This document shows, piece by piece, positions 25,059-38,533 of a stretch of DNA of 64,000 nucleotides. The position numbers and the translations under genes were made by a program. The stretch comes from Echinicola strongylocentroti. GTDB lineage: Bacteria; Bacteroidota; Bacteroidia; Cytophagales; Cyclobacteriaceae. The stretch is from contig NZ_CP030041.1 of assembly GCF_003260975.1 (NCBI RefSeq), forward strand, positions 186,001 to 250,000, in the 5' to 3' direction. Positions within the stretch are counted from its first letter, which is position 1, and each line of letters starts with the position of its first letter. The notes under the pieces were generated by a model. That model did not search any database. It had not been told where the DNA came from and was given only the letters and a program-made list of their open reading frames with translations.

Positions 25059-25811
25059 TTAAGAAAAGGCCAATCCACCATTGATATCTACATTATTACC
25101 AGTAAGGAAAGAAGACTCATCACTGACCAAATAGGCCACCAAATCAGCTACTTCTTCCGCTTTACCTTCTCTTCTCAAAGGAGTGCCGCCAGCCACTTTT
25201 TCCCTTACCTCATTTTTGGTAAAATCATCATGGAACTTGGTAGCAATCATGCCCGGATTCAAGGCATTTACCCTGATTCCCTGTGGGCCAAATTCCTTGG
25301 CCAAACCACGGGTAAGCGTAGAAACAGCACCTTTGGATGCAGCATATAAAAAGGCTCCAGGACCACCTCCATCACGTCCTGCTTGGGATGCGAAGTTAAC
25401 GATAGCACCGCCTTTACCCATCAATGGCTTGAACGCTTTGGTCACAAACACCGTTGATTTTAGGTTGACATTCATGATCAGGTCATAGAATTCCTCATCC
25501 ACCTCTTCGATGGTTTTTCTTGCAAACAATCCTCCAGCAACATTGACCAAAATATCTACTTTGTCACCAAAAGCTTCTTTGGTTTTGGCTACCATGTTGT
25601 CGATATCCTCTTGCTTGGTCATATCACCATGAACCGTCACCGCTTCACCCCCTACAGCTTTGATGGCTTCTAATGTCGCCTTGCTGTCTTCTTCACTTTC
25701 ATAGAAGTTTACAACTACTTTTGCTCCTTCACTTGCTAATTTTACACATACCGCGCGTCCGATGTCTCGGGCACCGCCAGTTACTACTGCTACTTTGCCT
25801 TTAAATTTCAT
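25059..25811 (-). CDS. SDR-family oxidoreductase, probable DEH reductase of the alginate pathway
   Basis: 250 residues with all classical short-chain dehydrogenase marks: the nucleotide motif TGGARDIGRA at about 10-19, NVAGG at about 88, the catalytic Ser at about 141 (NFASQAG), Tyr-xxx-Lys in YAASKGA at about 156-160, and NPGMIATKF. Sequence alone would allow a 3-oxoacyl-ACP-reductase-like enzyme. Its place as last gene of an alginate operon points to NAD(P)H-dependent reduction of 4-deoxy-L-erythro-5-hexoseulose uronate (DEH) to 2-keto-3-deoxygluconate. The gap to the transporter gene is 19 bp. The SDR class is certain; the substrate is inferred from context. Confidence 0.9.
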   Translation of the reverse strand: MKFKGKVAVVTGGARDIGRAVCVKLASEGAKVVVNFYESEEDSKATLEAIKAVGGEAVTVHGDMTKQEDIDNMVAKTKEAFGDKVDILVNVAGGLFARKTIEEVDEEFYDLIMNVNLKSTVFVTKAFKPLMGKGGAIVNFASQAGRDGGGPGAFLYAASKGAVSTLTRGLAKEFGPQGIRVNALNPGMIATKFHDDFTKNEVREKVAGGTPLRREGKAEEVADLVAYLVSDESSFLTGNNVDINGGLAFS

Positions 25812-25830: not shown

Positions 25831-27102
25831 TTAGTGATTTTTTATTTTTATTGGTTCTATTTTTTTGCATAAGACATATATGGCTATCACCCCTAGTGGA
25901 ACGAATAAGGCAATGGCCACAAATGCCGGCGTATAGGATTCTTGGGTGATTACTGGGATCAGGAAATTCATCAGTATGACAGACAAGACTCCCACAGTAC
26001 CGCCAAAACCTGCCAGGGTACCAACAGACTTGCCACTGAAAAGATCACTTGGCAAGGTCTGGACATTACTGATCGAAAACTGGAATCCAAACAGCACCAA
26101 TGCGACAATTCCCACAAACTTTTCAGGCGTATTGGCCATTAGTATGGTCGCCACCAATCCCAAAAACATAAGTACTGCACCGATGCTGATCGTGGTTTTT
26201 CTGGCCTTGTCCACACTTCCTGTTTTGGTAATCAACCTACCTGAAAACCAGCCTCCTGCAAGGCTCCCCAAACCGGCACCTACATAGGGTACCCAAGCGA
26301 AGAAACCTATTTCTTTCACGTCAAAACCATACTTATCTGCTAGGTAAATAGGCATCCATCCTACAAACAACCACCATATCGGTTCCAGAAAAAACCTAGA
26401 TACCAATACCGCCCAAGATTCCCTATGCGAAAGTATTTCTGAAAGGGACAGTACTTTTCCCTCTTCCTTTATATCTCTCTCTTGCCTTCCCTCAAGGATA
26501 TGGTCCCTTTCTTCATCACTTAGCCAAGGATGTTTGTTGGGTGTAGCCTTATTGATGATCAGCCAAGGGATCACCCATATCAAGACCAAACTTCCCACAA
26601 TAAAAAAGGTAACTCTCCATCCATAACCGACATACAGCATCGCGATCAACGGGGGAGCAATGACCGATCCCATCGAAGCACCTGCATTGAATATCCCTTG
26701 GGCGATGGCCCGTTCTTTTATGGGAAACCATTCTGCGTTGCTCTTCACCGCTCCTGGCCAATTCCCCGCTTCGGACAGTCCGAGCATGGCCCGAAAGATG
26801 GAAAAGGAAATCAACCCACGAGCTACGGAGTGAAGTGCAGTGGACGCTCCCCAGACCATAATGCTGACTACATACCCCATCCGGGTGCCGATCTTGTCAA
26901 ACATCCTGCCCGATAAAGACTGCCCCAAGGCATAAGCTACCATAAAGACATTAAGCATAATGGCATAATGGTACTTGGTAAACCCGAGCTCCTCGGAAAT
27001 ACCCGGCCACATGACACTGATTGCCGTGCGGTCAATATAGTTGATGACGGTGGCGAGGAATATCAGTCCGATAATCCACCACCTTAATCCTTTCATTTTC
27101 AT
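25831..27102 (-). CDS. MFS transporter, hexuronate/DEH type (ExuT-like)
   Basis: 423 residues with 12 predicted membrane segments. The N-terminus KGLRWWIIGLIFLATVINYIDRTAISVMWP and the loop motif GRMFDKIGTRMGY are typical of the anion:cation symporter branch (ExuT, GudP) that imports hexuronates with protons. In the alginate operon it should carry unsaturated uronate monomers across the inner membrane. The start at 27102 overlaps the annotated end of the cupin gene by 71 bp; if the cupin has a frameshift (see findings) the junction becomes a clean 2-bp gap. Confidence 0.92.
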   Translation of the reverse strand: MKMKGLRWWIIGLIFLATVINYIDRTAISVMWPGISEELGFTKYHYAIMLNVFMVAYALGQSLSGRMFDKIGTRMGYVVSIMVWGASTALHSVARGLISFSIFRAMLGLSEAGNWPGAVKSNAEWFPIKERAIAQGIFNAGASMGSVIAPPLIAMLYVGYGWRVTFFIVGSLVLIWVIPWLIINKATPNKHPWLSDEERDHILEGRQERDIKEEGKVLSLSEILSHRESWAVLVSRFFLEPIWWLFVGWMPIYLADKYGFDVKEIGFFAWVPYVGAGLGSLAGGWFSGRLITKTGSVDKARKTTISIGAVLMFLGLVATILMANTPEKFVGIVALVLFGFQFSISNVQTLPSDLFSGKSVGTLAGFGGTVGVLSVILMNFLIPVITQESYTPAFVAIALFVPLGVIAIYVLCKKIEPIKIKNH

Positions 27103-27478
27103 AATTACCCTTTATCTCCAAAATAGGACACTTCTCCCCTTCGAGGAAGTCTTCCCGCACGGGACTAAAAACATCTATCAGCATTCCTGCCTCTAGGCAT
27201 TTGGTCCCGTGAAGCAAATTTGGCTCGATGTACACACCATCGCCACCTTTGACGATTTGCTTTTCACCATCAATGGTAAATTCAAACTTCCCCTGTGCCA
27301 CATACGTGGACTGGGTATGGAAATGGGCGTGGGGCATTCCTTCTGCTCCTTCTTCAAACTTGACTTGGACCATCATGATTTGGTTATCATAGCCCAAAAA
27401 TTTGCGAGAAACTCCGCCTCCTAGGTTTTCCCATTCCATTTTGTCTGTTAGAATAAACTTTTCACTAAATCGCTTCAT
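27032..27478 (-). CDS. kdgF: KdgF-like cupin (unsaturated uronate linearisation), probable C-terminal frameshift
   Basis: 148 residues as read. A single cupin barrel lies at about 30-110, with the metal-binding motif MPHAHFHTQSTYVAQGKFEF (His 50, 52 and 54, with Gln56) and a later His in EPNLLHGT. The end LIDVFSPVREDF is typical of KdgF, the enzyme that opens the 4,5-unsaturated uronate released by exolyases to the linear ketone form (DEH). The last 30 or so residues are unlike the family and run 71 bp into the transporter gene in another frame. One base removed near 27127 would instead end the protein in SYFGDKG with a TAA at 27107-27105, just before the transporter ATG. I infer a single-base frameshift, real or from sequencing. 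Confidence 0.85.
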   Translation of the reverse strand: MKRFSEKFILTDKMEWENLGGGVSRKFLGYDNQIMMVQVKFEEGAEGMPHAHFHTQSTYVAQGKFEFTIDGEKQIVKGGDGVYIEPNLLHGTKCLEAGMLIDVFSPVREDFLEGEKCPILEIKGNYENERIKVVDYRTDIPRHRHQLY

Positions 27479-27484
27479 TGTTTC

Positions 27485-29746
27485 TTATTTTTTAATGTAA
27501 CTGTATGGACCTTTCCAGTCCCATAATTGATTTTCCACTTTTATCTCATGTGATGTCGTCTGGTCATTGCTCTGCTTGGCTATGGCCAACCGATACACCT
27601 GCCCCGTTTCATGTTTCCATTCTATAGCTATATAAGCTTCAGAGTCATGGACTATTTGGACTTCTTTCACTTCCGAAAAAGCTCCTTTAGAAAGTTCGCT
27701 TACCCGAGAGTATTCGCCGTGAGGTTCCAGTATGCTTACAAAAGTAGTCGTGGCAGCATCCCTGCTGATCATCAGAAGAGGATCTCTCCGCAGGTTAAAG
27801 TCAGGATCATTGGCACCTGTCCTGGCCAATGTCATTTGATCCCCTTTTTGACTAACGGACGTGATGGTATAGAATTGATCGTGATCCATCCATGTCATCG
27901 CGGCATTGCCCTCTTCCGTTTTTCCCTTTGCTTCGGCCCAAATGTGCTCATACCCATGCCCATCACCCATGGGCGTCAGGTTATTCTCGATATCATAGTC
28001 CCAGGAGGTAGATAACAACTGACCAAAGTAGTAATAGGGCAAATCGTAATGGTTTTGAGTAGCCGTAGATACACTCAATATATCCACCATCAAGGGCTTT
28101 TCGAATAGCCCATCACTGATCAAGGCGATCGTCCGGTGCTGTTCCACGCCGGGATAGGCATGTTGGTCTTTGGCACTCACTATTTTTATCTCTTCCTGAC
28201 TGGCATCAAAGAAATAGGGATCGCTGTGGTATTTGTTCCCCGTATCCGTATTGCCTTTAAAGTGGCTCTCCTTGTTGACTATCAAGGCATTGTGTGCCAC
28301 CGTTTGCTTGGCAAAAGTCTGGTTCTCTTTGAGGTAACCACCTCCGTCTTTTTGCTCGATATTAACAAAGCGGGCTACTCCATAATCTTGTAGGATTTCC
28401 CTTCCTTCTTCGTACAATGAAAGTGAGAGTTTATCAAAATGGCCATGCCCCATCCCCTGAGCAGTGTATTTTAACACAGCCGACAAGCTACTGGCTTTCC
28501 CATCCATTCTGAGGATACCTACTCCCCCGGTCTTTCCGTCAGCCCCATCGCGGAGCTCCATGGATTTGTGGACAAAGGGCTTACTTTTACCATTGGCGAT
28601 ATCAGCCGCCACATGCATACCGGAAGCATCGAGGAGGACGGTATTTTGCTTTTGTGCAATGGATAATAATTCTGGATTTTGCCCTCCAAAATGATAGGCA
28701 ATATCAATGGCAGAGACCAATTCCCTTGAATAGTAGGACATCCCTTTTTGGGCATCATTAATGGGAAAAAACTCTCCATCAGCATCACTCAGGTTGACCA
28801 ATGCATATACCGCTTTTCCTAAGATCCCCTCCCTATACTTGAATATTTCAAGTTCAGGCCGGGCATTTTGCAGACTCGCTGCAAATACCACAAACGGATA
28901 TATCGCATATCGCTGGTAATAGGGCCCTTCTGCATAAAATCCATCCGGGGAAAAAAGCAAATCCAACTGGGCCAAAAATCCTGCACGTTCTTCGCTTTTG
29001 ATCTTCCCCCCATCGTTATCTTTCATGTCTGCATCCAGTCCATCTTCTTCCAGTCCATACAGTGCACGGTGGACCAGTAAGGTATCACCCATCACCAAAC
29101 CAAGCATCCCTACACCGGCATTTGCCCAAGTACTGTGATTGTGGATTCGGTTAAAAAACTGCGGCGTCTCCACAGACAGGAAGTCTGCCTGCGGCCTAAG
29201 CAATTCCCTCTCCAGAAGCGTTCGTTCTCCCTCGCTTAACCAATCATAGATACAGTCATAAGCCTGACTTGTATAGACCAGCCAGTTGGCATCATTAAGG
29301 CATTGCCAAAAAAACTTGCCTGGTGAATAGGACTTTCTACTTGGATGACGGTCCAGGCTGGGATATAGCTCAGCGTACGTCATCAACATGTCTTTTACAA
29401 ACTGGGCATATTTCTCTTCTCCTGTCAGTACAAATACCTTCCCTGCCTGCTGCATGCTGAGGTAGTTCAACTTATGGCGCTCATGTGTATAGCCGCCTGC
29501 CAGGTCTTTTGGTATAGGTACATCGATTCCCAAGGCCATCTGTTCATCGACAAATTCCCTGGCATCCTCTAAGGATTGTCGAAACAATGGCCAGTCCATC
29601 GCCTCGTCCACTTGTGCTATCGTAGCATCATCAAACAAAATACTGTTGTGCTCCAGGGCTTCTTTCTCTTGACCTATAGCACTGATACTTAACAGCAAGG
29701 TCATGGCCGTAATGAGTAGGCTATATATAGTGATCGACTTGTTCAT
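27485..29746 (-). CDS. Alginate lyase, polysaccharide lyase family 17
   Basis: 753 residues with a signal peptide (cleavage near AIG-QE, about 25). The N-terminal half is an (alpha/alpha)6 toroid with an AlgLyase-like domain (about 60-340). The C-terminal half is a Heparinase_II/III-like beta-sheet domain (about 370-640). Family PL17 active-site features are visible: Asn203-His204 in NRIHNHSTW and the Tyr of GPYYQRYAIYP at about 276-283. PL17 enzymes are mostly exolytic and release unsaturated uronate monomers from alginate oligomers in the periplasm. Its start overlaps the end of the PL6 gene by 4 bp, and the cupin that takes its product follows 6 bp after it. Confidence 0.92.
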   Translation of the reverse strand: MNKSITIYSLLITAMTLLLSISAIGQEKEALEHNSILFDDATIAQVDEAMDWPLFRQSLEDAREFVDEQMALGIDVPIPKDLAGGYTHERHKLNYLSMQQAGKVFVLTGEEKYAQFVKDMLMTYAELYPSLDRHPSRKSYSPGKFFWQCLNDANWLVYTSQAYDCIYDWLSEGERTLLERELLRPQADFLSVETPQFFNRIHNHSTWANAGVGMLGLVMGDTLLVHRALYGLEEDGLDADMKDNDGGKIKSEERAGFLAQLDLLFSPDGFYAEGPYYQRYAIYPFVVFAASLQNARPELEIFKYREGILGKAVYALVNLSDADGEFFPINDAQKGMSYYSRELVSAIDIAYHFGGQNPELLSIAQKQNTVLLDASGMHVAADIANGKSKPFVHKSMELRDGADGKTGGVGILRMDGKASSLSAVLKYTAQGMGHGHFDKLSLSLYEEGREILQDYGVARFVNIEQKDGGGYLKENQTFAKQTVAHNALIVNKESHFKGNTDTGNKYHSDPYFFDASQEEIKIVSAKDQHAYPGVEQHRTIALISDGLFEKPLMVDILSVSTATQNHYDLPYYYFGQLLSTSWDYDIENNLTPMGDGHGYEHIWAEAKGKTEEGNAAMTWMDHDQFYTITSVSQKGDQMTLARTGANDPDFNLRRDPLLMISRDAATTTFVSILEPHGEYSRVSELSKGAFSEVKEVQIVHDSEAYIAIEWKHETGQVYRLAIAKQSNDQTTSHEIKVENQLWDWKGPYSYIKK

Positions 29747-31971
29747 TTTGCTTCCTTTAGGTTGTGGATCGTAGCTGTATTATCACTGATCTGGAGCAAT
29801 GACCTGTCATCGATAACTACTGATTCAATTACTGTAACCGGCTCACCTACTGTATGAAAGATATTCAGTTCTTTGGTATCTGAAAACGTCGTGTTCTCAA
29901 TATTGGCTTTCTGGACGCCGTGCAGCACCATTGCCTTATTACTGTCATTCTTTGGTCCGAAACCTACTTTTTCAAAATCACAATCAGCTATCGTCAGGAT
30001 GGGACCAAAGGTACTTTCATCACTTCCTCCACGATAAAGTTTCATTATCGGCTGTCCTATATTATTAAAAGTACTGTTTTCCAATACCACGTATTCTGCA
30101 TTGTAGATGCCACGATCTTCATTCTCTTTGTCCAATGCGAGGATACTCCCAGAAACATCCGTAAAGTTGGAGTCTTTTATCATGATGCTGTCAGCAAACG
30201 TGTTTTTATACACATCCAAGACATGGAAAGAGTGATTTACGTCCAGGTCTTTGAATTCGCAGTCTTCAATCCATAACTGGTAGTTTTTATTCATGGAATA
30301 CCGACTGGTACGAATGACTGCATTTCCTGCATAATCCGGTGCCTCAGCGCCATCGATCGTGATTCCTTTCAGCTTCAGCGATCCTCCGTTCTCAATGGCA
30401 AAAAGGTTCGATTTTTCAAACTTGATGGTAGCTCCACCTGACGAAACAATACTGATCGGGTGATCCAGCTCGATCACTTTGGTCAACAGGTAATCTCCCG
30501 GCTCTAGCACCAAAATATCACCTGCTTTTGAATGGGCAATTTCATCATATAGATCTGCTCCCTCCTTGACTACTTTTTCTTGGCCATAGTCAAACGCTTC
30601 TTTTTTTCCTGGCTTGAGATACCAAGAAGGTCCAGCCTTATCTTTACTGACTGCCTCAAAATCAGCCATAAGCCCTGCACCTTTTCCTCCGTCAAGTCGA
30701 TAGATATTTCCGTCTTTTTTCAATTCTCCTTTAATAGGACTAAATCCTCTGTCAATAATGTTTTTGATAGTGGGAGAGATATAATTGTTGGTAAATTCGA
30801 TTCCGGATATATCATCATAAACGGTAAAGACATCCTGCTTTTCAGTATTCCAAAACACATTGTCACGGATAACACTATTGATCGGAACTGCGCTTCTCTC
30901 TTCATCACTTCCTGCACATAACTGTACATAGTCACAGTCCACAAAAGTGTTGTTAAAAATCTCAGCCCCATCCACTTGATGGTACCGGTTTATGGGACTA
31001 TTGGGCACACCGTTCATTACCACCAGCGCTCCTCTAAACCAATGCCCTGTCAATCCATATCCATAATTATTGAATACCTTTTGCCTTTTGTTGATCACAC
31101 GAATACCTCCCGTATTGGGCATGCGGTTGCCATAGAAAGCGTTACTTTCTGCGATATTGTCATTGCCGTGCCGAAACGTCAGCGTTCCCACACATTCATA
31201 AAAAGTATTCCCTTTGAACAGGTTACCGCCGGATTTGTTGGAAATGATCTCATGCTCACCATTACACCGGTCAAAATAATTATTGACCACCTTTGTATTG
31301 GAGCTCGTTAGCGAATAATGACTTGTTCCGATCCTCAGGGTTTCGCCTCCATTGGACCCTAAGTTAGGTCTCGGGCCAAAATAGTTATGGTCGATAAGGT
31401 GGTGGTTGTCCTGACTTTCTTTATTGTTAAGGCGCACGGCCATCGTCACCCCTTTATTTCCTTTGCCTACTAGGGCATTATGGTCAAACCGGTTGTTTTT
31501 GCCGTACATTCCCACCCAGTAGTCGCTTTCATGTCGTTCTGGATTAGAATAATCCTCTATGGTACATTGGGTGATCCTGCAGTAATTGGCCAAGGTGTTT
31601 TTATCTTTTTTGAAACTGATCACTTCACTGGTAAGTGTATGGCCATCGCGAAAATAAAGCCCTGATACAACTAGGTATTCGCCCGCCACTCGAAGAGTGG
31701 AGTTTCCGGTCAATATGACTTTACCTGCCTCTTCGGCCATTACCACGATCATTGAATCTTTAGTACCTGTTCCTTCTACTAGTAAGTCGGCATCTTTCCA
31801 TTCTCCATTGGCCATTATGATCGTGTCTCCAGGCTGAGCTGTTGAAAGCGCGCCTGTCAGTTCCTCAGGATTGGAGGCGACCTTGTGCGATGGCTTTGTA
31901 GCACAACCATAGGCCGTAAGCATGATCATTACCAGGAGACTGTATGCGATACTGTTGATTTGAGTAGTCAT
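29743..31971 (-). CDS. Alginate lyase, polysaccharide lyase family 6 (two-domain)
   Basis: 742 residues from the ATG at 31971. This start gives a lipoprotein signal (MLTAYGC, Cys23); a Met eight codons earlier is less likely. The N-terminal right-handed beta-helix has the chondroitinase-B/PL6 pattern, with the catalytic Lys at about 246 (EIISNKSGGN) and Arg at about 267 (LTFRHGN), and calcium-site Asn/Glu around NGGETLR. A second, shorter beta-helix fills about 430-740, as in long PL6 members. PL6 lyases cut alginate by beta-elimination. As a lipoprotein it is probably on the outer membrane. It overlaps the PL17 gene by 4 bp. Confidence 0.92.
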   Translation of the reverse strand: MTTQINSIAYSLLVMIMLTAYGCATKPSHKVASNPEELTGALSTAQPGDTIIMANGEWKDADLLVEGTGTKDSMIVVMAEEAGKVILTGNSTLRVAGEYLVVSGLYFRDGHTLTSEVISFKKDKNTLANYCRITQCTIEDYSNPERHESDYWVGMYGKNNRFDHNALVGKGNKGVTMAVRLNNKESQDNHHLIDHNYFGPRPNLGSNGGETLRIGTSHYSLTSSNTKVVNNYFDRCNGEHEIISNKSGGNLFKGNTFYECVGTLTFRHGNDNIAESNAFYGNRMPNTGGIRVINKRQKVFNNYGYGLTGHWFRGALVVMNGVPNSPINRYHQVDGAEIFNNTFVDCDYVQLCAGSDEERSAVPINSVIRDNVFWNTEKQDVFTVYDDISGIEFTNNYISPTIKNIIDRGFSPIKGELKKDGNIYRLDGGKGAGLMADFEAVSKDKAGPSWYLKPGKKEAFDYGQEKVVKEGADLYDEIAHSKAGDILVLEPGDYLLTKVIELDHPISIVSSGGATIKFEKSNLFAIENGGSLKLKGITIDGAEAPDYAGNAVIRTSRYSMNKNYQLWIEDCEFKDLDVNHSFHVLDVYKNTFADSIMIKDSNFTDVSGSILALDKENEDRGIYNAEYVVLENSTFNNIGQPIMKLYRGGSDESTFGPILTIADCDFEKVGFGPKNDSNKAMVLHGVQKANIENTTFSDTKELNIFHTVGEPVTVIESVVIDDRSLLQISDNTATIHNLKEAK

Positions 31972-32309
31972 TTTTAAACTTTGGGTTCGGTACAATTGAC
32001 AATTTCTTTACTATCTGTAATGCTAATTATTGGGCGCTTTTGTAGTGACATTTTTGGACATAGCAATCCACTACAACCCTATGAAGAATTATTTAAAACA
32101 CTGTAAAACAACACATTAACACCCTTACTGATCGTCGTAAGGAAATGGATAAAAGACAAGGCCTGAAACCTACTTTTTCAGGTAATGGGAAGAATGAATA
32201 AAAACGCTATCTTTGCAATCTGTTATGGAATTTAGGTTCTTTTATTAGGACGCACGGCCAAATGTTCCTAATGATTGAACTTGATTCTTTTTTGCAAATG
32301 GATTGGCGT
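31972..32309. other. Gap between gntR and the PL6 gene
   Basis: 338 bp. It holds an imperfect hairpin downstream of gntR (CCTGAAA ... TTTCAGG, 32162-32182), a canonical plus-strand TATCTTTG (32208-32215) with no plus-strand gene after it, and near 31993 a TTGACAATT that resembles half of the gntR operator. The promoter for the lyase genes may be here or in front of gntR. Confidence 0.5.
32208..32215 (+). promoter_or_regulatory. Canonical -7 box facing an empty region
   Basis: TATCTTTG fits the Bacteroidota -7 consensus TAnnTTTG exactly. Downstream on the plus strand there is a stem (ATTAGGA ... TCCTAAT) followed by a T run near 32290, but no gene. It could drive a small RNA or be chance. Confidence 0.3.
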
Positions 32310-33092
32310 TTATGCTGATCCATTTTCTTCGCTAGCTCCCTTCTTCAATACATCTTTGTTTATTTTTGTCGAGATATTAAATCTTTCGATCCGAGTTTCG
32401 GCAAATTCTTGGATATTCTTAAGGTGATTGTTCATCATCAAGGCCACTGCTTCGGTATTTTGGTTTTTGATATGCTCGAAGATCACCTCATGCTCTTCCG
32501 CAGCGGCCAAGTACCTTCCTTCCCCACAGACATCATGCTGCTTAAAATAAGACAGAATATCTGGCGTAATGATCAACATCAGTGAAGTAAGCACCGAATT
32601 CTTACTGGCCTCAGCGATCTTCAGGTGAAACATCAAGTCTTCTTCCACGCCATGATGACCTTCTTTTACCTTTTTCATATGGGTTTTCATGGCCCGTTCT
32701 ATCTCCTTTAGGTCTTCATCGGATCTGCGTTCTGCAGCAAGTGAAGCGCTCTGGGTCTCCAGGATCACTCGTGTCTCCACCAGCGATTTAAAATCACTCC
32801 CTTCCAGCCTCAACACGTCTGATATTAATCCCTCCAATGCCGTAATTCCCATTCCGGCGACTACAGTGCCGCTTTGTGGCAAGGTTTTAAGGATTCCATA
32901 AAACTCCAGCTTCTTAATGGCATCCCTTAAATGGGTCCGCCCTACTCCCAGCTTCTCACATAATTTCCGTTCTGGAGGAAGTCGATCACCAGGCTGCAGT
33001 TGCCCGGAAGTGATCAAATTCTTTATTTGATTGATAATTTTATCAACCGGGGTCTCTATTTCTATTTGACTAAAATTGCTGAGTAATTCCAT
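32310..33092 (-). CDS. GntR-family (FadR/FCD-type) regulator of the alginate locus
   Basis: 260 residues. The N-terminal GntR winged helix spans about 12-80, with PVDKIINQIKNLITSGQLQPGDRLPPERKLCEKLGVGRTHLRDAIKKLE as the classic signature. The C-terminal all-helical FCD ligand domain spans about 95-225, with metal-site residues Asp, His and His of the family (DLMFHLKIAEAS; EHEVIFEHIKNQN). Members of this group often sense uronate-pathway intermediates and repress until ligand binds. It lies between susD and the lyases, and the same 16-bp palindrome occurs 22 bp upstream of its own start and upstream of susC, which suggests control of both itself and the transporter. Confidence 0.93.
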   Translation of the reverse strand: MELLSNFSQIEIETPVDKIINQIKNLITSGQLQPGDRLPPERKLCEKLGVGRTHLRDAIKKLEFYGILKTLPQSGTVVAGMGITALEGLISDVLRLEGSDFKSLVETRVILETQSASLAAERRSDEDLKEIERAMKTHMKKVKEGHHGVEEDLMFHLKIAEASKNSVLTSLMLIITPDILSYFKQHDVCGEGRYLAAAEEHEVIFEHIKNQNTEAVALMMNNHLKNIQEFAETRIERFNISTKINKDVLKKGASEENGSA

Positions 33093-33097
33093 AATTG

Positions 33098-33114
33098 TAT
33101 TGATTTAATCAATA
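33098..33114. promoter_or_regulatory. AT-rich palindrome in the gntR leader
   Basis: TATTGATTTAATCAATA: 8-bp perfect arms around one T, 6 bp upstream of the gntR start codon and touching the operator at 33114-33129. Confidence 0.45.
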
Positions 33115-33129
33115 ATTGGTCAACCAATT
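33114..33129. promoter_or_regulatory. Candidate GntR operator upstream of gntR
   Basis: AATTGGTCAACCAATT: 7-bp inverted arms (AATTGGT / ACCAATT) around a 2-bp centre. The GGT...ACC form fits FadR-subfamily operators. It is the exact reverse complement of the site at 38223-38238. Confidence 0.75.
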
Positions 33130-33492
33130 TAAAGTTATCCAATTACAGTTCCAAGCTTTTAATAAACATATTTAACAAATCGTAGGATAAAGGTTCAAGT
33201 ACACTACCTCATCATTGGTTTTCTGATGACCACTGTATGTTTACTTTCTTCCATACTATTACTAATTAACGGACAATAATTTCCTTAATAATAGTTAATA
33301 GTTATCTATTTTCTAGTCTTTGCTGTACTGGCCGTTAGTTTTGATACTTCATGTTTACTAAGGAGATTGCCGGGATTTCCATAATTTGAAAATCCCAGCG
33401 CTCTCATTCCCAATTCCAAATTAACTATTTACACGGCTGTATTTAGACTTAGAATCGACACTATTCACAAAGCTTCCGTTACAATTATGTTA
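33130..33492. other. Gap between susD and gntR
   Basis: About 360 bp with no gene. A stem GGGATTT ... AAATCCC (33372-33396) may be a weak terminator behind susD or a worn piece of repeat family B; it has no T run. Confidence 0.4.
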
Positions 33493-35106
33493 TTACAGTC
33501 CTTCATACCCCGTGTTTTGGGAAAGGCCCGGCAATAGATCTACATCTACATAATACTTGGGCCATAAATAATCCACTGCTGGATCAAAGTCCCTGTCTTC
33601 CAAAGCTGGAGCTGCACCGGTAAAGACATTACCCATTTGCCTACGTGCAATATCATACCAACGAACTCCCTCGAAAGCCAATTCCAATCGACGTTCTTCC
33701 ATTATTTCGGCTATAGTGATTCCGCCCGCATGGTCAGCAGGTATTGGACTTGGTGGATATTTGGCATCTCCAGCGCCAGCAGCATTTCTGGCACGTGCTC
33801 TTACCCTATTGACATATTGTACTGCCAGGTCATTATTGCCCAACTCTACTGCCGCTTCCGCAGCGATCAAAAGCACTTCTGCATATCGCAAAATAATAGG
33901 CTTAACATTAGAATCCCTCAAACTGGCCCCTTGGGCAGTGCCCGTTCTCAGTCCAGCTTCCCCCACTGCTCTGAAATACTTGGCAATAGCGGGTCTAGCT
34001 ACGTTTTGGGAGATATTGTCCCATTCGGTAAACGGATAGTCCGGTATTCCCTGATAGGTGATGGCTGTATCCAGGCTGACTGCTTTTCTGTAGTCCCTTC
34101 CGTCCCATTTTTCATAAACACTCAATTCGGGAACAATGGCACTCCAGCCTGCAGCTGCTGCATTTAACGCTTCGAACCTTTCATCTCCTCTGGGACCCGT
34201 TATGGAGGTCATCTGATCCGTACCTGCATTGGAACCTCCAAGCTCCCCTGGAGTGATGTTATGGTTGTCATTAGCTATCATATTTAATTTGAACAATACC
34301 TCTGAAGAAGTATAGTCGGGAGCAAAGATATCATAGTAGTCATTGTCCAATGCCACACCGTATTGCCCTTCATTGTCGATGACATGTTTGGCATTATCAA
34401 ATGCACTCTGCCAATCTCCTCCTTCTGCTGCTTCGGAAGTAGCCTTGGTCATGTAGACCGACGCCAACATACCATAAGCTGCAGCCTTACCTGGGTGGGA
34501 CCGATCTGCTGGCACGTCGACCAGCCATGTCTTGGCAAATTCCAAATCGGAAATTATCCCTGCATAAATCTCAGGTACGGAAGACTGGGAAACGGCATAC
34601 GGATCCTCCAAAGGCTCCCCGTTCATATAGATAATCTCTCCAAATAACCTGACATAAACATAATGGACGTAAGCGCGTAAAAAATACGCTTCTGCTACTA
34701 CCGGGTTTATTTCCTCTTCAGTCCCTGACACCACATCCTTGGCATTGATTACCGTATTGGCTGCAGCCAGGATTTTATAGCCCATTGGCCAAAAAGCATT
34801 TACCAGTCCATTATCCTGCTCCATCTGCATAAGGTCACAGGCATGTCTCCTAGTGGCGGTGCCGGGGTCACCTATGCCACACATGTCTGAGCGTACCAAT
34901 AGTGCCAACGACAGCTTACGGCCATAAAATTCCTCACGGGCAAGGAGGTAATAGCCCCCATTTACTCCTGATTGTAATTCCGATACGGTTTGAAACAAAC
35001 CTTCAGGAGCCAAGACACCAACAGGTCTCTCTTCCAAATCCTCGCATGACATGGAAAAAACCATGATTAGAGCGAATAGTATTGAGGTTATATATGAATT
35101 TTTCAT
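33493..35106 (-). CDS. SusD/RagB-family lipoprotein of the alginate locus
   Basis: 537 residues from the ATG at 35106 (Met ten of the longest frame). The lipoprotein signal ends in FSMSC with Cys21, followed by EDLEERP. TPR-like helices and the C-terminal SusD region are present, with ILRYAEVLLIAAEAAVELGN and a late EIMEERRLELAFEGVRWYDIAR, which is the RagB/SusD hallmark. It forms the lid of the SusC transporter encoded 46 bp upstream and should bind alginate oligomers, as inferred from the lyase genes beside it. Confidence 0.93.
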   Translation of the reverse strand: MKNSYITSILFALIMVFSMSCEDLEERPVGVLAPEGLFQTVSELQSGVNGGYYLLAREEFYGRKLSLALLVRSDMCGIGDPGTATRRHACDLMQMEQDNGLVNAFWPMGYKILAAANTVINAKDVVSGTEEEINPVVAEAYFLRAYVHYVYVRLFGEIIYMNGEPLEDPYAVSQSSVPEIYAGIISDLEFAKTWLVDVPADRSHPGKAAAYGMLASVYMTKATSEAAEGGDWQSAFDNAKHVIDNEGQYGVALDNDYYDIFAPDYTSSEVLFKLNMIANDNHNITPGELGGSNAGTDQMTSITGPRGDERFEALNAAAAGWSAIVPELSVYEKWDGRDYRKAVSLDTAITYQGIPDYPFTEWDNISQNVARPAIAKYFRAVGEAGLRTGTAQGASLRDSNVKPIILRYAEVLLIAAEAAVELGNNDLAVQYVNRVRARARNAAGAGDAKYPPSPIPADHAGGITIAEIMEERRLELAFEGVRWYDIARRQMGNVFTGAAPALEDRDFDPAVDYLWPKYYVDVDLLPGLSQNTGYEGL

Positions 35107-35152
35107 GATTTCCTTATTGTTAATTATTGACAATTTAAAGATCGAGCTTTGA

Positions 35153-38100
35153 TTAAAATCCTAGATTTAGTCCGACAGTAAATGTCTTCACATTCGGATA
35201 ACTACCATAGTCCAGTCCTAAATTACGGTTGGAGTCCGCATTATCGGTACCTTCACCTTCATTTTGGTAAGCCGCTTCAGGATCAAGCCCCGAATAATTC
35301 GTAAAAGTCAACAGGTTTTGGGCACTTACATACACCCTTAAGGAACGTATTTTTATTCTGTCCAAGATGGTATTGGGAACAGTGTAGCCCAATGCCAGGT
35401 TTTTAAGACGTACATAACTTCCATCTTCTACCCATCGGGATGATATTTTGAACGTCCTGTCTGTATCAGCTGAAGGAATACTTCCTCCTGGGTTGTTTAC
35501 TGGATGATATCTATCCAGTGCAGCAGTGGATACATTGTTGGTTCCCCTGAAGGATTCCAGTTCCATCCTGGTCAAATTAAGCATTTCGTTTCCGTGGACA
35601 CCTTGGATAAAAATATTCAAGTCGAAATTTTTATAGGTAAAGTCGTTATTGAACGACCAAGTAAAGTCCGGATGTGGGTTGCCTATGATCTTACGGTCAG
35701 CGTCGGTAAGCCTACCGTCTCCATCCAAGTCTGCGAATTGCTCTCCCCCTACTTTCTCATCTGAGCCCTCTAGCAAAACGTCTTCCGGCTGGGTAACCCC
35801 TTCGTAAACATATCCATAATAGACACCCATTGGCTGGCCTTCTTGAAGCAACATGAAACCGGTGGAAATATTAAAGTGTCCAGGCGCATTTTCATATTGG
35901 ATGGTAGAATCCGGTAATGAAAGCACTTCGTTTTTGTTCATGGCAAATACCAAGTCGGAATCCCAAGTGAATTCGCCTACTAAGTTTCTCGTGCTTAGCA
36001 TCGCTTCTATACCAGAGTTTCTAATTTCACCTGCATTCTGAAGCTGGGTAGCTGGATCTTCGTCCACTCCCAAAAATGATGGAATGGGGCGATTAAACAA
36101 TAAATCAGAGGTTCTTTTGTCGTAATAATCGAAGCTCAGATTGATCCTATTTTCTAATAATCCAAGGTCCACACCTACGTTCAACTGGGAAGTGGTTTCC
36201 CAAGTCAAGTTAGGATTGGCCAAACTACCCAATATCAAAGAACCCTCACCAGGTCTATTGGAGTATTGGGCCACCAAGGTAGCCAAGGATTCGTATGCTC
36301 CGATGCCCTGATTGCCGGTTAGACCATAACTGGTACGTATTTTCATTTCGGAAATCGGCTCTACAGACTGCAAAAAGGCTTCGTCACCAATATTCCATGC
36401 TATCGCACCTGAAGGGAAATAAGCCCATTTGTTATTCTCTGCAAAATTGGAAGCTCCATCATATCGGATGGTACCAGTAAATACGTACTTATCCATCAGC
36501 GTATAGTTTGCCCTGGAATAGTAGGATTTCAGGATCCGTGTAGAAGTCCCTGAAGTAGGTGGAGTATAATCTGCACCACTTCCTAAGTTCCAGTAACTTA
36601 CCGCCTCGGAAGGGAACAAGCTGGATCCAGCTGTCATATTCTCTCCTACCATCTTCTGATAAGAGTAACCATTGACCCAATTGATCCTGTGTATTCCAAA
36701 TTCCTTATTGATGGTGAAGTAATTTTCAGTAAGCAAGTTGGTGGATTTATCAAATTCCAACAGCGCAATACCTCCATCGCCACCTCGTATCAATTGGGAA
36801 GACCTGAATTCACCTTCTCTAAAAGAGGTCACGCCAGCGCCTAGGGTAGACTTAAAGGTTAACCAATCCAAAATTTTGAATTCTGCAAAAGCATTGGTCT
36901 GAAACCTGTCCGAAATCCGTTCTCTATCAATTCCATTGGCGATACCTACTGGGTTATCGATATTATCACCTAGCCTAGACTGGGTAAAATCTCCGTTCTC
37001 ATCTCGCACTGGAGTATCAGGCTCCAATCGTGCAGCTGCACCTATTACACCTGTTTCACTAGATCCACCTGACTGCTCTTGGGTCAACACCCCTTCGTCA
37101 GTACTTCTTCTTCCGTAAAGGTTCACGCCTAATTTCACTCGATCCGATACGTCAAAGGTCAAGTTACTGGTAATGGAATACCGCTGATATTTGGAATTGT
37201 CTACCACACCCTCCTGCTCAAAATGTGTTCCTGACACATAGTATTTTACGGCTTCACTTCCTCCACTGACGGATACCTGATTGTTCCAGATATGTCCAGA
37301 CCTAAAGATTTCATCCTGCCAATCGGTGTTGACATTTGGATTATAATCGTAAGCAGGTAAAACCTCCAATATATAATCCCTAAAATCATCGCCTGAAAGA
37401 AGATCAAGACGGTCACTGGTGTTTTGGAAGGAATAGGAGCTGTTTACATCTACTTTTGTCTTGCCCACTCCGCCAGATTTGGTCGTAATCAATATTACTC
37501 CATTGGCAGCACGTGAACCATAAATGGCTGTAGCGGAGGCATCCTTTAAGATCTCCATGGACGCTATATCCTGAGGAGGTGGCATCTCTCCTCCTACAAA
37601 CCCATCCACTACAACAAGTGGCTGACTACTGGCATTAATCGAACTCCCTCCTCGGATCTTCATGCTCATCTCAGCTCCTGGCTGACCACCATTGGTAGAT
37701 TGGATCTGTACCCCCGGTGCGCGACCTTGAAGGCCTTGAACAGCATTCAATGTAGGGTAGGCATTTAACTCCTCAGACTTGACAGAGGATAAAGCTCCCG
37801 TATTGTCACTTTTCTTTACAGAACCATACCCTACCACTACTACTTCTTCGAGGTCTTGGAGATTGCCTTCCAAGGAGACGTTGATGACAGACTTACCTGA
37901 CACCTGCACCTCTTGGCTTTCAAATCCCACAAAACTGATTTTCAAAATAGCTGAAGACGGATCTGAAAGTGTGATGGAATACTGACCATCTATATCCGTA
38001 GTGGTACCGTTAGAGGTTCCTTTTTCAATAATAGTGGCTCCTGGAATACTCTCGCCACTCTCCGCAGACTCAACTACGCCCGTCACTATACTTTGTGCAG

Positions 38101-38173
38101 ACGCTACATACGACATCAAGCACATGGCAATTATTGCCACATACCTACTTCTTAACAGTAATTGTCTTTTCAT
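35153..38173 (-). CDS. SusC/RagA TonB-linked transporter of the alginate locus
   Basis: 1006 residues. A signal peptide (about 1-26, VASAQ) is followed by a CarboxypepD_reg-like domain (about 30-105), a plug (about 110-230, with LEEVVVVGYGSVKKSDNTGALSSV and SQPLVVVDG) and a barrel ending in FTVGLNLGF with a terminal Phe. It lacks the STN domain seen in the SusC at 4794-8414, so it should be controlled by a one-component regulator; the palindromic GntR site lies 50 bp upstream of its start. It is the expected importer of alginate oligosaccharides into the periplasm. Confidence 0.93.
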   Translation of the reverse strand: MKRQLLLRSRYVAIIAMCLMSYVASAQSIVTGVVESAESGESIPGATIIEKGTSNGTTTDIDGQYSITLSDPSSAILKISFVGFESQEVQVSGKSVINVSLEGNLQDLEEVVVVGYGSVKKSDNTGALSSVKSEELNAYPTLNAVQGLQGRAPGVQIQSTNGGQPGAEMSMKIRGGSSINASSQPLVVVDGFVGGEMPPPQDIASMEILKDASATAIYGSRAANGVILITTKSGGVGKTKVDVNSSYSFQNTSDRLDLLSGDDFRDYILEVLPAYDYNPNVNTDWQDEIFRSGHIWNNQVSVSGGSEAVKYYVSGTHFEQEGVVDNSKYQRYSITSNLTFDVSDRVKLGVNLYGRRSTDEGVLTQEQSGGSSETGVIGAAARLEPDTPVRDENGDFTQSRLGDNIDNPVGIANGIDRERISDRFQTNAFAEFKILDWLTFKSTLGAGVTSFREGEFRSSQLIRGGDGGIALLEFDKSTNLLTENYFTINKEFGIHRINWVNGYSYQKMVGENMTAGSSLFPSEAVSYWNLGSGADYTPPTSGTSTRILKSYYSRANYTLMDKYVFTGTIRYDGASNFAENNKWAYFPSGAIAWNIGDEAFLQSVEPISEMKIRTSYGLTGNQGIGAYESLATLVAQYSNRPGEGSLILGSLANPNLTWETTSQLNVGVDLGLLENRINLSFDYYDKRTSDLLFNRPIPSFLGVDEDPATQLQNAGEIRNSGIEAMLSTRNLVGEFTWDSDLVFAMNKNEVLSLPDSTIQYENAPGHFNISTGFMLLQEGQPMGVYYGYVYEGVTQPEDVLLEGSDEKVGGEQFADLDGDGRLTDADRKIIGNPHPDFTWSFNNDFTYKNFDLNIFIQGVHGNEMLNLTRMELESFRGTNNVSTAALDRYHPVNNPGGSIPSADTDRTFKISSRWVEDGSYVRLKNLALGYTVPNTILDRIKIRSLRVYVSAQNLLTFTNYSGLDPEAAYQNEGEGTDNADSNRNLGLDYGSYPNVKTFTVGLNLGF

Positions 38174-38222
38174 GATTAAAATAACTGGTTATTAGGTTGT
38201 ATTCTTGATTGACCGTCCAATT

Positions 38223-38238
38223 AATTGGTTGACCAATT
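38223..38238. promoter_or_regulatory. Candidate GntR operator upstream of the alginate susC
   Basis: AATTGGTTGACCAATT, part of a longer 20-bp inverted repeat (38221-38240, 9-bp arms). It overlaps a second palindrome CCAATTAATTGG (38217-38228), and a further half-site TTGACC lies at 38209-38214. It is the reverse complement of 33114-33129. Confidence 0.75.
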
Positions 38239-38533
38239 AATGGATGATCAATATAAAGGATAAAAATCAGGAATAGCAAGAATATAGGAAGGAAAATTTT
38301 ATGCAATGGTCTATCATAAAGAGACAAAGCTGGTTATAATAACCAATGACCAAATTAAAAATGATGGTGTATCGCCATCTGATTGAAATATGGCTAATTT
38401 TGATAAAATCTGATCAAGTGAAAAGTTAGGGGCAATTTTTTTACATCCAATTATGATAAGGTTAATCCAGTTTATGCAGTAGGAATCGTTATCGCCTGTC
38501 CCGACAGCGAAAAGAGTTGAAAGTGCAAAAAAA

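Follow-up and report, generated by a model that had tools for sequence, protein, structure and literature searches.

Predicted operators of an AusR-type GntR regulator in an alginate locus of Echinicola strongylocentroti, and the spacing of doubled operators in related Bacteroidota

Results

Organization of the alginate locus

The window, meaning the whole 64,000-nucleotide stretch of contig NZ_CP030041.1 analyzed here (positions 186,001 to 250,000), was shown to carry on its minus strand susC, susD, gntR, genes for a PL6-type and a PL17-type lyase, a KdgF-type cupin, an MFS transporter, and an SDR oxidoreductase, in this order (Table 1). The names PL6, PL17, and KdgF represent our reading of the domain matches; the PL17-type lyase, for instance, scored 706 bits against the NCBIfam oligoalginate lyase model NF042990, under its cut-off of 1400. 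A search for PL7 alginate lyases gave no match in the genome of E. strongylocentroti, and the same search was positive in all three related genomes, with 3 to 5 matches each. The operator before susC began 10 bp downstream of a promoter-like pair, and no such pair was seen before the gntR gene of the window, except for one overlapping the operator itself.

Table 1. Coordinates of genes and sites at the alginate locus (window positions)
Feature	Coordinates	Strand	Basis or remark
susC	35153-38173	minus	TIGR04056
susD	33493-35106	minus	SusD_RagB, SusD-like_3; ATG start taken, mechanical ORF starts at 35133
gntR, AusR-type regulator (P0001)	32310-33092	minus	GntR + FCD domains
PL6-type lyase	29743-31971	minus	Pfam Chondroitinas_B; ATG start taken, mechanical ORF starts at 31995
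PL17-type oligoalginate lyase	27485-29746	minus	Pfam Hepar_II_III_C + Alginate_lyase
Cupin of KdgF kind	27032-27478	minus	Cupin_2
MFS transporter	25831-27102	minus	MFS_1
SDR oxidoreductase, probable DEH reductase	25059-25811	minus	adh_short_C2; presumed substrate
Promoter-like pair TTG - 21 bp - TATATTG before susC	38249-38279	minus	pattern match alone
Predicted operator before gntR, AATTGGTCAACCAATT	33114-33129	no strand assigned	exact; 1 of only 2 exact genome copies
Predicted operator before susC, AATTGGTTGACCAATT	38223-38238	no strand assigned	exact; within 38221-38240 inverted repeat
Weak second core TGATCATCCA	38241-38250	minus	15 bp upstream of susC operator; 2/8 mismatches
Weak second core TGGATAACTT	33132-33141	minus	15 bp upstream of gntR operator; 3/8 mismatches

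Two 16-bp palindromes unique to the locus

The first-pass annotation had described the sites AATTGGTCAACCAATT and AATTGGTTGACCAATT as exact reverse complements, one lying 22 bp ahead of gntR and the other 50 bp ahead of susC, and the letters at both places agreed with this description, as did the distances measured from the two ATGs at 33092 and 38173, both on the minus strand. The longer 20-bp inverted repeat noted at susC was located at 38221-38240, with 9-bp arms around a 2-nt centre, and the extra half-sites were recovered as weak second cores 15 bp upstream of both operators, 15 bp being the usual spacing of operator copies in relatives.

The sequence AATTGGTNNACCAATT matched exactly at two places in the window and at the same number in the whole genome of 6,252,144 bp, where 0.045 (independent bases) or 0.11 copies (first-order Markov) were expected from the base composition of the window. 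The presence of unrelated exact copies across the genome, which would have spoken against a common operator, was thereby checked, and both copies lay within one alginate locus. When up to two mismatches were allowed, 43 places were found versus 35 for a reversed-pattern control, and the weaker matches were thus regarded as background. The exact core TTGGTNNACCAA occurred in 13 copies versus 7 for its reversed-pattern control; 11 of the 13 lay outside the locus, and each of these fell within a mechanical ORF (minimum length 60 aa); two were additionally situated 125 and 242 bp before another ORF. Among the 41 further places with one or two mismatches, the four inspected (L003, L007, L010, and L013) were inside ORFs as well. 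No further regulon members were found among these 11 outside cores and four weaker places, and the visible regulon of the organism thus comprised the two sites.

Properties of the regulator

The gntR product (P0001) contained the Pfam domains GntR (PF00392) and FCD (PF07729), both over cut-off. Its scores against NCBIfam equivalog models were far under every cut-off (UxuR, 70.3 of 442 bits; ExuR, 56.3 of 396; LldR, 99.3 of 311; NanR, 104.4 of 260; PdhR, 85.6 of 330), and an assignment to any of these regulators was rejected. Residues invariant in 20 orthologues comprised R42, R52, and R56 in the HTH, arginines of the kind that contact DNA in FadR, and R108, D152, H156, H201, and H223 in the FCD domain, a D/H set of the kind that binds metal in FCD proteins. 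A structure model of the protein (mean pLDDT 75, pTM 0.56, weak linker at 82-99) retrieved FadR-type GntR structures with a best E value of 6.8e-10, which added little to the sequence search.

Among the best 80 of 327 listed loci, the closest named relative was found in Echinicola pacifica (86% identical). Relatives in family f7 (probably Flavobacteriaceae) were 44-49% identical. The genome of E. strongylocentroti encoded at least one more protein of FadR type, with 29% identity to P0001. Within the genus, G047, G111, and G146 gave weak matches alone (28-31% identity) versus a regulator of 61% identity accompanied by a 15-bp doubled operator in G740; the distribution of the locus in the genus was patchy.

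AusR, a regulator of Zobellia galactanivorans Dsij, was reportedly described by Dudek et al. in 2020 (Nucleic Acids Res 48:7786). P0001 was encoded together with alginate lyases and susCD, and one strong operator copy, each with a weak second core, preceded both gntR and susC; on the strength of published descriptions of the Zobellia regulator, we assign P0001 to the AusR kind. The FadR-type reading made earlier was upheld by the GntR and FCD domains together with a GT-N2-AC core, as it occurs in some FadR-subfamily regulators according to the available portion of PMC4494728. In the form GGT-N2-ACC, both sites fit the palindrome of this subfamily, in which GT and AC of the TKGT/ACMA boxes are separated by 2 or 3 nt.

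Conservation of the operator in relatives

An orthologue search of P0001 over 148 genomes of the host family yielded 28 orthologues besides its own gene (48-70% identity, E ≤ 3.5e-69), clearly set off from the next matches at E ≥ 8.6e-19. Of these 28 genes, 24 had a site differing from ATTGGTNNACCAAT at one position at most in their 150-bp upstream region; the four lacking it were the second copy of G088, one copy of G072, and the genes of G113 and G049. For the best 80 of 327 named loci, the site before gntR showed no mismatch in 42 cases, one in 34, two in 2, and four in 2; accordingly, 76 of 80 had at most one mismatch versus 0 of 4000 mononucleotide shuffles with fewer than two, and the proportion was 68 of 72 when eight loci that appear to repeat genomes of the family set were removed. 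Twelve orthologues outside the host family, obtained from a phylum-wide draw of 395 genomes, showed 0 to 4 mismatches (at most one in 6 and at most two in 10), while the best upstream match had at least three mismatches in all 17 fetched paralogues. E. pacifica kept a site before gntR and a second one 5209 bp away, the two sites of the window being 5109 bp apart, and carried a third match, with one mismatch, 211 bp upstream of its gntR site.

The conservation in related loci that was looked for was thus found, in company with the regulator and alginate genes, and the earlier proposal of autoregulation plus susCD control by the GntR of the locus, as a prediction from sequence, is strongly supported by it.

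Regulon content and the link to the lyases

The site also preceded the susC related to that of the window in G124 and G088, with 57 and 62 bp between site centre and ATG (57 bp in the window), and another susC in G072 (162 bp). The susCD pairs of G088 and G124 were 68-80% identical to that of the window (33493-38173). Most AusR loci carried another susC, about 30% identical to the one in the window; different susCD pairs would therefore have come under the same operator. Of the further site-bearing genes in the 22 related genomes, ten were scanned and encoded six PL7 lyases (PF08787) and four PKD-domain proteins, lipoprotein-like in our reading; this count leaves out orf465 of G124, orf106 of G088, orf234 of G072, orf166 of G042, and orf422 of G002. 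Operator matches that fell within genes, for example in the PL6 gene of G035, are likely to be due to chance. A different susC (30-33% identical to that of the window) lay directly 3' of gntR in 17 of the 22 genomes, so that one gntR site can serve a run of genes. In the relatives, the lyases do belong to the predicted regulon, either via full sites before PL7 genes or by their position downstream of gntR.

For the window itself, a near half-site ahead of the PL6 gene had been proposed to extend the operator to the lyases. The letters TTGACAATT were indeed present, on the other strand, but they did not amount to an operator, and the proposed extension was abandoned, the best match in the gntR-PL6 gap having 5 of 12 mismatches. 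The corresponding gap of E. pacifica was likewise without a conserved site. Given that no operator was seen in this gap, control of the lyases, encoded 3' of gntR in the same orientation, would rest on readthrough from gntR as the likeliest link. Apart from this, about 60 bp directly 3' of the gntR stop (32244-32310) were well conserved in E. pacifica, above the rest of the gap.

Spacing of doubled operators

In the window the operators were present in a single-site form, with weak second cores alone at -15, whereas doubled and tripled copies occurred in relatives. Over 41 family sites, including the two of the window, second cores (no more than 2 of 8 mismatches) were situated 15 bp downstream in 19 cases and 15 bp upstream in 6, and no other offset was represented more than twice. 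Similarly, for 51 of 68 further named gntR sites a second core lay at a distance of 15 or 16 bp in one direction or the other, compared with a mean of 0.25 second cores for each of the remaining offsets.

Whole genomes were then searched for pairs of exact cores with a centre-to-centre distance of 10-30 bp, in comparison with the reversed pattern. Family f7 (199 genomes) gave 139 such places versus 12, and among the 75 matches listed 66 were spaced at 13 bp and none at 15-16 bp. Family f8 (150 genomes; probably the Lewinella/Saprospiraceae group) gave 67 versus 17, with 57 at 15-16 bp, one at 14 bp, and two at 13 bp. The host family (196 genomes) gave 11 versus 9, a count that by itself equals background, so that the evidence there lies in the crowding near 15 bp (7 of 11 at 15-16 bp, none at 13 bp) and in the neighbouring genes. 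By a loose test, for which a match within about 1.5 kb to any of eight proteins of the window or four from relatives was sufficient, a neighbour of alginate kind was found at 21 of 24 fetched 13-bp loci of f7, at 27 of 32 fetched 15/16-bp loci of the host family and f8, at the one 13-bp locus of f8 that was fetched, and at 3 of 14 fetched loci of other spacings.

A tree was built from 67 AusR proteins, namely the window protein and 66 whose own stretch included an exact doubled site, rows without such a site having been excluded beforehand (131 distinct rows in all). As a result, the proteins split into two clades with a branch support of 100 (SH-aLRT, quick method): all 13 rows of clade one had a 13-bp spacing, and all 53 rows of clade two, to which the window protein also belonged, had a spacing of 14 (3), 15 (34), or 16 bp (16). 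The f8 genomes G866 (L292) and G879 (L293) each possessed a 13-bp alginate locus whose AusR was closer to the f7 type, being 67-78% and 59-64% identical, respectively, to five f7 references and 46% and 48% identical to the window regulator; G879 additionally possessed a 15-bp locus with the other AusR type (L308). These 13-bp loci may reflect transfer between families or stray contigs. It is the regulator type, and not the family of the host, that the spacing split follows. In the 13-bp clade AA/TT accounted for 26 of 42 counts of operator centre bases, and in the other clade CA/TG for 84 of 128, with middle copies of triples counted twice. The residues separating the two clades included positions 30, 158, and 169 of the window protein.

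Discussion

Proposed mode of control

Taking the exact sites, their uniqueness in the genome, and their conservation together, we consider it very likely that they are operators of the AusR-kind, GntR/FadR-type regulator encoded between them, which would repress the gntR and susCD transcripts. From this we infer binding, repression, effector, and readthrough as follows. Without alginate, regulator dimers would occupy two sites, one before gntR and one immediately 3' of the susC promoter, holding down both transcripts, and the genes for the lyases and DEH processing further downstream would be controlled likewise by readthrough from gntR. Upon alginate breakdown, a sugar-acid intermediate would bind the FCD domain and cause release of the DNA; this is probably KDG, which we take to be the effector of AusR-type regulators. 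The promoter-like pair ending 10 bp before the susC operator suits repression.

Some GntR regulators are activators, and the sign of control is not given by conservation alone; the local regulator might therefore use the same sites to activate susC and gntR. This appears unlikely, since the susC site lies downstream, not upstream, of the promoter-like pair, and since TTTG was richer on the upstream side of 93 gntR sites (59 occurrences over 23 offsets) than on the downstream side (10 over 44), most strongly at -26 (19 of 93), although adjacent operator copies contain TTTG too. The published AusR is, moreover, a repressor in the available portions of PMC7874173, PMC8286568, and PMC8073546. It is still less probable that the adjacent gntR is a bystander and that another FadR-type regulator binds the sites: such a protein is encoded in the genome, and the subfamily commonly uses GGT/ACC half-sites according to the available portion of PMC4494728, but the site travels with orthologues of the window gntR, was missing at up to two mismatches before every one of the 17 paralogues, and, where doubled, takes a spacing that tracks the clade of this very regulator even in hosts of another family. 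As for chance palindromes in AT-rich intergenic DNA, the near-background number of places with up to two mismatches is what this explanation would predict; nevertheless, two exact copies exceed the expectation per genome, and conservation at the same place in family orthologues and named loci, with both sites kept in E. pacifica, in practice refutes it, leaving it a negligible probability.

Relation to known systems

The predicted repression by the AusR-kind regulator of the locus represents a system already known in kind. Zobellia AusR is a GntR-family repressor, so called in the accessible part of PMC8073546, that recognizes operators in one, two, or three copies (PMC7874173, as far as available) and is released by breakdown products (PMC7874173 and PMC8286568, likewise in part). 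The window resembles it in having a GntR-family regulator in an alginate locus with operators before the promoters of the locus, and breakdown products, which lift repression in Zobellia, would bring about release here as well. Unlike AusR with multiple operators, the operators of the window are essentially single, and the clade of its regulator keeps 14-16 bp between doubled operators, as opposed to 13 bp in the other, probably flavobacterial clade.

In the available portion of PMC4494728, a 2-nt distance from GT to AC is given for the FadR-subfamily regulators GntR, HpxS, HypR, MdcY, PrpR, and UxuR, and none of the subfamily members covered came from Bacteroidetes. The sites of the window share with the subfamily an AT-rich palindrome having TGGT/ACCA boxes and a 2-nt centre, as well as weaker extra boxes near the main site; unlike UxuR, P0001 reached 70 bits against the UxuR cut-off of 442. 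As in the window, a FadR-family GntR of Bacteroides eggerthii is encoded in a locus with PL6, PL17, KdgF, MFS, and SusCD (PMC11381880, in part). No operator was found for this regulator in the available text of PMC11381880, nor for the Vibrio GntR regulators of alginate loci in that of PMC13390454, nor in the portions of the Flagellimonas alginate literature searched.

Implications

We regard it as probable that the AusR proteins of Bacteroidota form two clades that differ in the helical phase at which doubled operators are read, 13 bp versus 14-16 bp (mostly 15). The split was not found in the portions of the literature searched, outside of which lay the original AusR description, which may give the flavobacterial spacing. 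If true, evolution would have remodelled the contact between adjacent AusR dimers and, along with it, the phase of the operators, and cooperativity of a polysaccharide repressor would become testable by shifting one operator copy by two bases. The two spacing types would offer a natural pair for the joint change of a repressor and its doubled sites. The operator, readable in unannotated genomes, would mark alginate genes, and the predicted control of alginate use by AusR would extend from the flavobacterium of first description to Cytophagales and Saprospiraceae.
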